DNA from: Oscillatoria sp. CS-180
Lineage (GTDB): Bacteria > Cyanobacteriota > Cyanobacteriia > Phormidesmidales > Phormidesmidaceae
Length of the DNA: 63,505 bases
Reading direction: 5' to 3'
NCBI RefSeq assembly: GCF_028330965.1
Contig: NZ_JAQMUB010000005.1
Span: forward strand, 1-63,505
How positions within the stretch are numbered: position 1 is the stretch's first letter; the number at the start of each line of letters is the position of its first letter. Made by a program: the position numbers and the translations under genes. A model generated the notes under the pieces. It was not told where the DNA came from and searched no databases. It saw only the letters and a list, made by a program, of their open reading frames with translations. Of the stretch, positions 40,465-43,458 are shown piece after piece.

Positions 40465-41745
40465 ATGTCTAACTACATTGCCCTCATCGCCCATGACAGC
40501 AAGAAAGATGACATGGTGGCTTTGGTACATCGACGCTACAGCACTTTTGCCAACTATCGTCTAATTGCGACGGGAACAACTGGGCAGCGCATTCATAAAG
40601 CAACTGAGCTAGACGTTGAGCAAATGGTTTCAGGGCCATTAGGTGGGGATATTCAGGTTTCTGCCAAAGTTGTGGACGGAGATGTAGCTGCGGTCATCTT
40701 TCTCCTTGATCCGCTTAATGCTCAGCCCCACGAGCCAGATATTCAGGCTCTGCTGAGAGTGTGTGAAGTCTACAACGTTCCTCTGGCAACTAACATAGCG
40801 ACAGCAGAGGCCGTTCTTACACAATTACAGAAATTCCGCAGAGGTGCTCTGATTTTCAACCCGGTATCAGGCCAAGGAAATCCTGATCAGGATTTAACCG
40901 TCATTCGGCGATTGCTGGAACCTCAAGTACAGCTTAGTGTCGTATTAACGAACGAAAATGAAGATCCCGCTGAGCAAGCCAAAGCTGCGATCGCGAAAGG
41001 AGCCGAACTGATTGTTGCCTCTGGAGGAGATGGCACAGTTTCTGCGGTAGCCGCAGCTTTAACCGAAACCGACATTCCTTTAGGCCTGATTCCGCGTGGC
41101 ACAGCTAATGCCTTTGCCAATGCACTGGGCATTCCTACTGATATTCGCTCGGCCTGTGGCACCATTCTTGCAGGTAATACTCTCATCGTCGATGCCGCTC
41201 GCTGCAACGGCAAACCCTATGTTTTGTTGGCCGGTATTGGTTTCGAAGCTGAAATGGTAGATCGCGCCAATCGAGAACTGAAGAATCGACTCGGTGTTCT
41301 CGCCTATCTGTTTGCCGGCGTTCAACAGTTTCAAGAGCAGACAGCTTTCAAGGCAGTCATTGATATTGAAGGCGAGCTAACCGAAGTAGAAACAGGAACT
41401 ATCACCGTTGCCAATGCTGCACCTGCAACATCTGTTTTGGCTCAAGGCTTTGGAGAGGTTGTCTTCGATGATGGTCTGTTAGATGTCACTATCGCTACGC
41501 TGAAAACACGACTTCAAGGACTCAACGCAATCACTAGCCTATTTGCCTCTGCCTTAGTGAATACGCCCACTCAGCGAGATGACATCATCCGTCTCCGGAC
41601 CCGACGTCTTAAGATCACGACTGAACCACCGCAAAAGCTTGTTGTTGATGGAGAGATCTTGACTGCCCCCTCAGTTGAACTTGAATGCTTACCTAAAGCC
41701 CTAACAGTACTAGCCCCTCTTGCCACTCAAAATTCCGCTAAATAA
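40465..41745 (+). CDS. methylglyoxal synthase / diacylglycerol kinase-type fusion
   Basis: 426 residues with two complete domains. Residues 1-125 are a methylglyoxal synthase: IALIAHDSKKDDMVALV, ATGTTGQRI, SGPLGGDIQ with the catalytic Asp, and LDPLNAQPHEPDIQALLR with the His. It converts dihydroxyacetone phosphate to methylglyoxal and phosphate. Residues about 128-415 are a YegS-type lipid kinase catalytic domain: LIFNPVSGQGN, VVASGGDGT-like (IVASGGDGTVSAVAAAL), IPRGTANAFANALG. The lipid kinase could phosphorylate diacylglycerol or a related lipid. The fusion links central carbon overflow with lipid phosphate chemistry. Confidence 0.9.
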   Translation: MSNYIALIAHDSKKDDMVALVHRRYSTFANYRLIATGTTGQRIHKATELDVEQMVSGPLGGDIQVSAKVVDGDVAAVIFLLDPLNAQPHEPDIQALLRVCEVYNVPLATNIATAEAVLTQLQKFRRGALIFNPVSGQGNPDQDLTVIRRLLEPQVQLSVVLTNENEDPAEQAKAAIAKGAELIVASGGDGTVSAVAAALTETDIPLGLIPRGTANAFANALGIPTDIRSACGTILAGNTLIVDAARCNGKPYVLLAGIGFEAEMVDRANRELKNRLGVLAYLFAGVQQFQEQTAFKAVIDIEGELTEVETGTITVANAAPATSVLAQGFGEVVFDDGLLDVTIATLKTRLQGLNAITSLFASALVNTPTQRDDIIRLRTRRLKITTEPPQKLVVDGEILTAPSVELECLPKALTVLAPLATQNSAK

Positions 41746-41820
41746 ACTCCACACTTCATCTGAGAGGATGGGTGTAGGACGTTCTACAACTTACATATAG
41801 TCCCCTGAATTTCACAGCCA

Positions 41821-41868
41821 GATGGTTGGTTACCTTGGCCTAATGGAATTGGCGACAGCCATATCATT
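41821..41868 (-). repeat. interspersed repeat family copy, inverted
   Basis: On the minus strand it reads ATGGCTGTCGCCAATTCCAT then TAGGCCAAGGTAACCAACCA, the family pattern in reverse orientation. Confidence 0.65.
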
Positions 41869-42060: not shown

Positions 42061-42110
42061 AGATCAGCTTTCCTAGTGTTTTGAATGGTGAGCCTATTTC
42101 TGCCGTCGTG
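42061..42110 (+). repeat. composite repeat copy A, right block
   Basis: Aligns without gaps to 53176-53225 at 36 of 50 positions by my count (shared TGAATGGTGA). Confidence 0.6.
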
Positions 42111-42185
42111 TACTAGACTCCAGACGTTGACGCCTTCAAATTCACCTGCTAGCCTTAAGTAACACACATTTAATTTGATAGCTAT

Positions 42186-42245
42186 ATGCTTTTCAGCGCA
42201 GAGCAGTTTTACTTTTGGTTTTTTGAGGAGGTTCACCAGTGGTGA
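42186..42245 (+). CDS. aromatic leader peptide 1 of the DAHP synthase gene
   Basis: Nineteen codons reading MLFSAEQFYFWFFEEVHQW then TGA. Eight of 19 residues are aromatic, six of them consecutive (Phe-Tyr-Phe-Trp-Phe-Phe, 42207-42224). The last codons contain GGTTCACCAG (42230-42239), perfectly complementary to CTGGTGAACC (42267-42276), which overlaps the 5' arm of the terminator at 42273-42300. A ribosome stalled for charged Phe-, Tyr- or Trp-tRNA at the aromatic run would leave this arm free for antitermination; one reaching the stop would cover it. No clear Shine-Dalgarno site is seen. Confidence 0.8.
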   Translation: MLFSAEQFYFWFFEEVHQW

Positions 42246-42276
42246 GTTAGCTTTTGCTGAAATCCTCTGGTGAACC
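42230..42276 (+). promoter_or_regulatory. antiterminator 1
   Basis: Ten-base perfect pairing of 42230-42239 with 42267-42276. The downstream arm shares AACC (42273-42276) with terminator 1, so the two structures exclude each other. Confidence 0.78.
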
Positions 42277-42300
42277 GCAGACAACGCTCTGCGGTTTTTT
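42273..42300 (+). terminator. attenuator terminator 1
   Basis: AACCGCAGA pairs with TCTGCGGTT (nine perfect pairs, loop CAACGC), followed by a T-run. Lies 27 bases after the stop of leader peptide 1 and about 300 bases before the DAHP synthase start. Confidence 0.88.
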
Positions 42301-42328
42301 CGTTTTCATGGCAATTTTGGTCATCATC

Positions 42329-42397
42329 ATGTGTTTCTCCGCCTTGGCCTACTGGTTTTTTAGCTTTTACTTTTTCACTGGGACACGCTCCGGGTGA
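42329..42397 (+). CDS. aromatic leader peptide 2 of the DAHP synthase gene
   Basis: Twenty-two codons from the ATG at 42329: MCFSALA, then YWFFSFYFF, then TGTRSG and TGA. Nine residues are aromatic. The N-terminus shares MxFSA with leader peptide 1, which supports this start over the in-frame ATG at 42308. The closing codons CGC TCC GGG (42386-42394) are perfectly complementary to CCCGGAGCG (42423-42431), which overlaps the 5' arm of terminator 2. It could alternatively be a tiny membrane protein from the 42308 start, but the terminator geometry argues for a leader. Confidence 0.78.
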   Translation: MCFSALAYWFFSFYFFTGTRSG

Positions 42398-42431
42398 CTA
42401 GGCTGATATGGCCCTGCAACCCCCCGGAGCG
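42386..42431 (+). promoter_or_regulatory. antiterminator 2
   Basis: Nine-base perfect pairing of 42386-42394 with 42423-42431. The downstream arm shares CCCGG with terminator 2. Same logic as antiterminator 1 with unrelated sequence. Confidence 0.75.
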
Positions 42432-42453
42432 CCAAAGCGACCGGGGGGTTTTT
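42418..42453 (+). terminator. attenuator terminator 2
   Basis: AACCCCCCGG pairs with CCGGGGGGTT (ten pairs, very GC-rich), followed by TTT to 42453. It starts 21 bases after the stop of leader peptide 2. Confidence 0.9.
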
Positions 42454-42489
42454 AATAGGCGCCCAACAGCATCCGGGTGTTTGCCCCAT

Positions 42490-42540
42490 GGCCAGATGGC
42501 TCGCCGGCTTGCCCTAACGAAACTGGCGACAGCCGTAACA
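42490..42540 (-). repeat. interspersed repeat family copy, inverted
   Basis: On the minus strand it reads TACGGCTGTCGCCAGTTTCG then TTAGGGCAAGCCGGCGAGCC. It sits between terminator 2 and the DAHP synthase start. Confidence 0.75.
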
Positions 42541-42600
42541 CCAAAGTTCATTCTGGATTACCCAACATCATTCCACACTAATTAATAAGGAACCGAATCC

Positions 42601-43458
42601 ATGCAAGATGCAAAGCTCACCGTCAAATCACATACCGCTCATCGATCTGTCATCGCTTTGTCCGATCGCGTCACTGTGGGCGGTGACGATCTCTTGATGA
42701 TTGGCGGGCCTTGCTCCGTCGAAAGCCTAGAACAGATGGAGACTATAGCAACTCGTCTCGGGAACACAACTATTCAGGCTCTCCGAGGCGGCGTTTACAA
42801 GCCCCGCACCTCCCCCTATGCATTTCAGGGACTTGGAGAGGCGGGGCTTGCCATTTTGGACCGCATCCGGCGTCTCTACTCTATTCCCGTCATTACTGAG
42901 GTGATGGCTATTCATCAAATTGAGGCGATCGCAGCCCATGCTGATGTGCTGCAAATTGGTAGCCGCAACATGCAAAACTTCGATCTGCTCAAAGCGGTAG
43001 GACAAGTCGATAAGCCTGTTGTTCTGAAGCGTGGGCTTGCTGCAACAATCCAGGAGTTCATCATGGCGGCTGAATACATCATGAGCCATGGCAACTCAAA
43101 TGTGATTCTATGCGAACGAGGTATCCGCAGCTTCGATAGCTATACCCGCAACGTGTTGGATTTGGGAGCGGTGGTAGCTCTGAAACAGCTCACTCATCTG
43201 CCCGTCATTGTTGATCCTAGTCATGCGGCTGGAAAGCGAGAGTTGGTACCCGATTTAGCGCGGGCGGCGATCGCGGCAGGTGCCGATGGCCTCATGATTG
43301 AGTGCCATCCTGTTCCTGAGGAATCAGTGTCGGATGCCCGCCAAGCGCTGTCATTGGAAGACATGGCAGCTTTGGTAGATAGTCTGCATCCCATTGCTAC
43401 AGCCATCGGACGACGGATTCCGACAGTTCAGGAAACTCGCGAACCTGTCTTGTTCTAG
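42601..43458 (+). CDS. aroF: DAHP synthase (3-deoxy-7-phosphoheptulonate synthase), short type I-beta
   Basis: 285 residues. First step of the shikimate pathway: phosphoenolpyruvate plus erythrose 4-phosphate. Motifs are IGGPCSVES, RGGVYKPRTSPYAFQG, ITEVM, QIGSRNMQNFDLLKAVG, VLKRG, VILCERGIRSF, DPSHAAGKR and MIECHP, all of the AroAI-beta/KDO8P-synthase-like group. Only about 25 residues precede the barrel, so the ferredoxin-like regulatory domain of longer members is absent and no chorismate mutase domain is attached. AAGGA is ten bases before the ATG. Two aromatic leader peptides with terminators precede it. A terminator follows at 43599. Confidence 0.93.
   Translation: MQDAKLTVKSHTAHRSVIALSDRVTVGGDDLLMIGGPCSVESLEQMETIATRLGNTTIQALRGGVYKPRTSPYAFQGLGEAGLAILDRIRRLYSIPVITEVMAIHQIEAIAAHADVLQIGSRNMQNFDLLKAVGQVDKPVVLKRGLAATIQEFIMAAEYIMSHGNSNVILCERGIRSFDSYTRNVLDLGAVVALKQLTHLPVIVDPSHAAGKRELVPDLARAAIAAGADGLMIECHPVPEESVSDARQALSLEDMAALVDSLHPIATAIGRRIPTVQETREPVLF

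Follow-up and report, generated by a model that had tools for sequence, protein, structure and literature searches.

Two predicted aromatic amino acid attenuators in series upstream of a short DAHP synthase gene in cyanobacteria

Among the closest described systems is aroR-aroF of Corynebacterium glutamicum, in which a leader peptide with Phe-Tyr-Phe precedes a DAHP synthase gene (accessible portions of PMC11802643 and PMC4046766). According to the same portion of PMC11802643, transcription of this gene is enhanced by stalling under phenylalanine limitation, and trpL and pheL of E. coli likewise encode leader peptides in front of aromatic biosynthesis genes, regulated by charged tRNA. Two leader peptides before a single gene are described for ermB (ermBL and ermBL2), which is, however, subject to translational attenuation and induced by erythromycin, as far as the available text of PMC8274638 goes. 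Two serial terminators, one of them with a potential antiterminator, are found in the gammaproteobacterial rimP leader, but the available part of PMC2965389 contains no amino acid-coding leader peptide. The actuatons of Synechocystis are 5' elements of a cyanobacterium that precede a gene and terminate transcription incompletely; in contrast to the elements considered here, they are sRNA cassettes, and regulatory codon runs are not mentioned in the excerpt of PMC5386190. For attenuation in cyanobacteria, a publication of 2016 (PMC4833913, available in part) states that no reliable data exist.

In this study, two leader units located in series upstream of a DAHP synthase gene were analysed in a 63,505-nt stretch of DNA (the window) of Oscillatoria sp. 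CS-180. The anatomy of these units, its conservation, covariation, gene specificity and geometry were computed. C. glutamicum, an actinobacterium, has only one leader, and the cited run lacks Trp; trpL and pheL of E. coli are single leaders for one amino acid each, and the cyanobacterial elements have no Rfam match. At the gathering score, neither the window nor six relatives yielded a match to any Rfam family; the matches at E ≤ 5 in 42100-42620, three in number and all weak, included no leader family. A weak match to NsiR1 (20.8 bits, cut-off 39) at 42400-42455, corresponding to terminator 2 and its approach, was rejected. A phage origin was discarded as well, 42100-42620 having no match among phage records. 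A single attenuator before a DAHP synthase gene is already known from C. glutamicum; the novelty lies in the phylum, in the conservation of the doubling and in the association with a short enzyme. Literature searches, judged by titles and the beginnings of abstracts, brought up no recognisable description of such elements in cyanobacteria, and none is contained in the accessible parts of PMC2965389, PMC8632094, PMC10875765, PMC7693272, PMC1262725 and PMC5386190. This and PMC4833913, within the limits of the partial texts, agree with a preliminary description of the locus, whose author knew of no cyanobacterial case.

Anatomy of the two leader units

The features of the locus are compiled in Table 1. 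The aromatic runs of the leaders differ (FYFWFF in leader 1, YWFFSFYFF in leader 2). Each unit contains an intrinsic terminator between leader and gene, a sequence feature from which termination is inferred, at a distance of 27 nt (unit 1) or 20 nt (unit 2) from the stop codon. In both units, antiterminator and terminator are mutually exclusive, and the antiterminator extends into the end of the leader frame, as judged by covariation and folds; GGTTCACCAG is complementary to CTGGTGAACC and CGCTCCGGG to CCCGGAGCG. The fold of antiterminator 1 (42230-42283) has an energy of -28.0 kcal/mol. The preliminary description had located and translated both frames correctly, had placed the terminators 20-27 bases behind the stops and had recognised the complementarity of the last leader codons to the 5' side of the terminator in both units, all of which was confirmed. 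It had also regarded an MxFSA start common to both leaders as a sign of selection. This part could not be upheld, since relatives start with, for example, MLNTNSYF and MTYFSSWF; judged by these sequences, the common start is local or coincidental.

Table 1. Features of the leader region and the downstream gene
Feature	Position	Strand	Basis
Probable promoter, TTGACG + 17 nt + TAGCCT	42127..42155	+	consensus kept upstream of first leader in relatives
Leader peptide 1, MLFSAEQFYFWFFEEVHQW and stop	42186..42245	+	translation; related peptides in other cyanobacteria
Antiterminator 1, 5' arm GGTTCACCAG	42230..42239	+	overlaps end of leader 1; covariation
Antiterminator 1, 3' arm CTGGTGAACC	42267..42276	+	bases in common with terminator 1; covariation, folds
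Intrinsic terminator 1, T run, -13.2 kcal/mol	42273..42300	+	terminator scan, covariation, fold
Leader peptide 2, MCFSALAYWFFSFYFFTGTRSG and stop	42329..42397	+	translation; start placed by close relatives
Antiterminator 2, 5' arm CGCTCCGGG	42386..42394	+	complementarity, covariation, fold
Antiterminator 2, 3' arm CCCGGAGCG	42423..42431	+	inside terminator 2; complementarity, covariation, folds
Intrinsic terminator 2, T run, -24.0 kcal/mol	42418..42453	+	covariation, fold
DAHP synthase, type I-beta, barrel only, 285 aa	42601..43458	+	NF006421, TIGR01361, structure alignments

A further in-frame ATG of leader 2 is located at 42308; close relatives (e.g. L084, L086 and L087) have the ATG at the position of 42329. 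Most of the peptides related to leader 1 in other cyanobacteria end with VHxx. Terminator 2 is missing from the generic terminator scan, the loop limit of which is 8, and the promoter is absent from the generic promoter scan of the window. In 88 of 92 loci, a motif of TTGACN, 16 to 18 nt and TANNNT precedes the first detected leader by no more than 130 nt, compared to 0.5% in base-shuffled controls. The leader region is flanked by an imperfect 50-nt direct repeat (76%; 41817-41866 and 42491-42540, 674 nt apart). Further upstream, at 40465-41745, a methylglyoxal synthase match and a lipid kinase match are joined in a single frame.

It is considered highly probable that the two units are ribosome-mediated transcription attenuators of the trp type in series, which sense Phe, Tyr and Trp and control the short DAHP synthase gene. 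RNA polymerase would start at the probable promoter shortly upstream of leader 1. With plentiful charged Phe-, Tyr- and Trp-tRNA, the ribosome would pass the aromatic run, reach the stop codon and cover the 5' arm of the antiterminator, upon which the terminator would form and transcription would end. If one of the three charged tRNAs is scarce, the ribosome would halt in the run and leave this arm free, and the antiterminator could form while region 4 is still being made, allowing the polymerase to pass. Leader 2 would repeat the test of leader 1, the gene would be transcribed only if both terminators are passed, and repression at the two terminators should multiply. Promoter use, translation, stalling, termination, amino acid response and multiplication are inferred, without transcript, ribosome-profiling or expression data.

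Distribution and gene specificity of the elements

Elements were scored by a detector which demands a short frame with at least four aromatics in ten, a terminator no more than 75 nt away and an antiterminator helix that overlaps the two. The detector was altered once after its misses had been seen (first version: farthest start codon and frames of up to 60 aa; final version: start within 40 codons), and all shuffle controls and window scans refer to the final version. The window contains 1528 short frames (702 on the plus and 826 on the minus strand), 28 of which are aromatic-rich (13 and 15, respectively). With both whole strands scanned, the full anatomy was detected in the two leader frames only. 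One element was found 8 times in 1000 dinucleotide shuffles of the 700 nt upstream of the gene and 7 times in 470 shuffles comprising five for each of 94 upstream regions of short forms, window included; two elements were obtained in neither set.

DAHP synthase loci were collected from named genomes (80 loci), from the family of the window (63 genomes searched) and from the phylum (386 genomes searched), the last search providing the loci of the best 30 and 40 hand-chosen stretches, 20 of these being long forms of cyanobacteria. Of the 177 loci of the detector set, 13 were dropped and 164 kept. The short orthologues (at least 63% identity, N-terminal extension below 40 residues, L010 placed by hand) account for 94 loci. 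Two elements are present in 84 of these, one in nine and none in one; with the first detector version, the figures for the 94 short loci of at least 63% identity, L010 included, were 78, 14 and two. L039 and L043 were counted as single, but a second aromatic leader is visible by eye in each. The sole locus without an element (L044) belongs to a Melainabacteria MAG, and its upstream stretch resembles, by eye, the end of another gene. A search for conserved leaders with covarying pairs before short DAHP synthase genes, proposed in the preliminary description, was thereby run and passed, at least one element being present in 93 of the 94 loci.

No element was detected in any of the 67 fetched loci with an extension of at least 40 residues, all of which are below 63% identity. 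One element each was found in three distant short forms below this identity, L204, L207 and L053 of Aerococcus. Of 38 distant loci (L045-L082), seven have some aromatic-rich short frame, and only the Aerococcus locus has the full anatomy. The short DAHP synthase of this Firmicute, Aerococcus agrisoli, is preceded by a single aromatic leader (YFFFNFYFYFF) which is equipped with a terminator and an antiterminator and seems to be of independent origin. Since many loci are close relatives (Nostoc) and the short form goes along with high identity, the locus counts do not represent independent events.

Covariance models of element 1 (R1) and element 2 (R2) were both run on the same 386 genomes of the phylum, with stricter filters by which weak matches are lost. 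The DAHP synthase orthologue was found at E ≤ 1e-100 in 38 of these genomes, as a split gene in G442. R1 matched in 37 of the 38 (missing in G205) and R2 also in 37 (missing in G178), so that both are present in 36 and at least one in all 38. Outside the orthologue genomes, R1 matched in two of 348 (G092 with 60.3 bits; G179 with 28.2 bits, model positions 91-124 only) and R2 in eight of 348, all at or below 35.2 bits, the best being G296, which carries the distant short form L207. The orthologue genome G442 has an additional weak R2 match (32.1 bits). In the genome of the window, each model has a single match. Going by these matches, the predicted elements are tied to this one DAHP synthase gene.

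In G092, the leader-1 element (L199, G092:C48:72500-75500) adjoins a degraded remnant of a DAHP synthase, covering query residues 46-104 at 49%. In G442 (L200, G442:C1:3949800-3958300, family f7), the DAHP synthase gene is interrupted after approximately codon 77 by a stretch of approximately 5.8 kb containing a phage-integrase-family gene, while both leaders still match R1 and R2. This stretch resembles the elements interrupting genes in heterocyst formers.

The tie to one gene has to be weighed against a reading in which both terminators are constitutive stops and the terminated short RNAs or peptides are the actual product, acting in trans in the manner of sRNAs or actuatons. Precedents exist in the abundant read-through sRNAs of Synechocystis (PMC5386190) and in the Sinorhizobium leader peptide peTrpL, which is needed to regulate another operon (PMC7298713), both as described in the accessible parts of these publications. 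However, the conserved feature of the elements is the competition of two hairpins, which would be needless for a free sRNA, and an association with a single gene does not favour an action in trans either. This reading is regarded as very improbable.

Covariation, codon content and folding

Covariation supports the attenuator reading for both units. Alignments of unit 1 (A1, 44 rows) and unit 2 (A2, 43 rows), with structures named by the author, were compared to 500 controls per helix in which the 3' letters were shuffled; these shuffles ignore relatedness. For each of the four helices, the observed covariation score was reached by none of the 500 shuffles. Double-change cells amounted to 41 in antiterminator 1 (shuffled mean 12.3), 10 in terminator 1 (2.1), 35 in antiterminator 2 (14.1) and 35 in terminator 2 (11.9). 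Further pair types were not above the shuffles in antiterminator 1 (16 vs 16.0), antiterminator 2 (12 vs 11.8) and terminator 2 (9 vs 9.7), and neither were the pairs with double change in antiterminator 2 (3 vs 2.5) and terminator 2 (3 vs 2.3). Since region 3 pairs in both folds, three-way changes are the telling sign. At columns 67/118/134 of A2, C-G-C is found in 19 and T-A-T in 11 of the 43 rows, and both pairs are kept in 32. At two triples of A1 which are otherwise T-A-T, two of the 44 rows have T-G-C and two have C-G-C or C-G-T. One clade has the 5' arm of unit 2 in a position further upstream, and the 3' arm has shifted along (CCGGGTCAGG with CCTGACCCGG); the rows of this clade were not realigned for the test of antiterminator 2, which lowered its paired percentage. 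A recent duplication of one unit was ruled out by the separate conserved arms and peptide ends of each unit.

Nearly all leader frames contain all three aromatic amino acids: Phe, Tyr and Trp are present in 85, 86 and 85 of 86 leader-1 frames and in 88, 86 and 87 of 88 leader-2 frames. At the positions of the run, the three interchange; codon -10 of leader 1, for example, encodes Tyr in 50 and Phe in 28 of 78 frames. Such interchange and the variation of the runs between lineages are unlike a sequence-specific arrest peptide and are at odds with an attenuator whose signal is the nascent chain or a drug instead of charged tRNA. A similar plan is realised in leader peptides before resistance genes, as in ErmB with its two leader peptides (available excerpt of PMC8274638), but the gene downstream serves aromatic biosynthesis here, and we give a stalling-peptide or drug-sensing mechanism hardly any credence.

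Another alternative concerns the relation of the two leaders to each other. Instead of repeating one test, they might not be redundant and might each respond to a different amino acid or range of starvation, forming a two-input gate. The terminators differ in strength (-13.2 vs -24.0 kcal/mol), the order of residues in the runs (FYFWFF vs YWFFSFYFF) is not the same, and there are lineages with only one detected unit (unit 2 in G205, unit 1 in G178). On the other hand, all three aromatics occur in both leaders in nearly all loci, and in the Obscuribacter-type MAGs L039 and L042, the second leaders of which were read by eye, both leaders have Tyr runs, as expected if the same signal is read twice. 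A division of labour is for these reasons held to be rather unlikely, though possible. Tandem attenuators responding to aromatic amino acids, the main interpretation of the preliminary description, are supported by the conserved elements, the covarying arms and the gene specificity, with stalling and termination inferred.

In the 86 leader-1 and 88 leader-2 frames from loci of at least 66% identity, Phe is encoded by 468 TTT and 37 TTC codons (505 in total), in contrast to 160 TTT and 287 TTC (447) in the downstream genes. Selection acting on the RNA, and not on decoding, could be the cause of this TTT bias. A synonymous-change test did not separate the reading frames, neither for leader 1 (0.31 in frame vs 0.24 and 0.35) nor for leader 2 (0.34 in frame vs 0.25 and 0.30).

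For the folds with a halted ribosome, a reach of approximately 12 nt past the A-site codon was assumed. With RNA up to region 3, antiterminator 1 is whole when the A site is at TTT 42207, TAC 42210 or TTT 42213, nearly whole at TGG 42216 and weaker at the last two Phe codons, while antiterminator 2 is whole and free for the tested halts between 42350 and 42371. Once the ribosome is placed on the stop codon, the terminator is the best fold. If region 4 is included, unit 1 keeps its antiterminator when the halt is at 42213, opposed by a 5-pair remnant, and has a shortened antiterminator beside an 8-pair terminator hairpin when the halt is at 42216, so that only one of the two tested halts preserves it. 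For unit 2, the best static fold including region 4 is the terminator with a halt at either 42353 or 42365. Since the static fold of unit 2 favours the terminator despite the halted ribosome, the switch has to be kinetic, and the mechanism, on the basis of these modelled folds, depends on the antiterminator forming first. It had been proposed that an antiterminator can form only if the ribosome does not reach the stop; this is in line with the terminator as best fold at the stop, but a halted ribosome is not sufficient to make the antiterminator the static optimum in unit 2. In the absence of any ribosome, the antiterminator is formed in unit 1 and the terminator in unit 2, with an upstream hairpin holding part of the 5' arm of unit 2. 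A clear protector (1:2) hairpin was not found in the folds of unit 1.

The short enzyme and its descent

The downstream gene encodes, by sequence, a DAHP synthase, in agreement with its earlier designation as the first enzyme of the aromatic pathway (NCBIfam NF006421: 395.1 bits, profile positions 68-336 of 338; TIGR01361: 357.8 bits). The best solved chain is 1ZCO (262 aa; query residues 16-263), and residues 10-273 align with 75-337 of 1RZM. According to these alignments, the protein is devoid of an N-terminal domain. In the 1RZM enzyme, this domain presumably carries the feedback control.

A second DAHP synthase encoded in the same genome is of the AroFGH type and has no leader; no short frame with more than two aromatics in ten was found upstream of it. 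A 38%-identical match on C65, at first read as a second DAHP synthase, turned out to be a KDO8P synthase, and a search of the genome for a type II DAHP synthase yielded none. Short frames up to 350 nt ahead of three trpE-like genes and of the top matches to leuA and ilvB were inspected by eye, with the weaker matches to these two left out; no leader rich in Trp, Leu or branched-chain amino acids was seen among them.

A quick tree was built from 163 DAHP synthases. In this tree, one group (SH-aLRT 99) is made up of 95 short forms; it comprises Cyanobacteriia as well as Obscuribacter-type and related lineages and includes L040, labelled as an actinobacterial MAG. The long cyanobacterial form (20 rows, support 100) stands apart from this group, and L053 and L207 are placed outside of it. 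The tree is midpoint-rooted and has some long end branches. Vertical descent of the short form is the simple reading of this sequence tree, and a transfer between lineages is not excluded. The ancestor of cyanobacteria and Obscuribacter-type lineages might have possessed a DAHP synthase without N-terminal domain preceded by two serial attenuators, which have been kept since; feedback would have moved from protein to RNA and been doubled there. Whether this scenario is correct is regarded as evenly balanced.

If true, this would be a tandem of amino acid attenuators that is ancient and spans the phylum, RNA control having taken the place of allosteric control. A conserved pair of this distribution would place attenuation in cyanobacteria and would show that attenuators can be stacked and maintained in series over very long times. 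It would also offer metabolic engineers a native switch at the entry of the shikimate pathway. The split among the fetched loci, with a leader before the short enzyme and none before the extended one, provides a testable case of RNA regulation replacing allostery.
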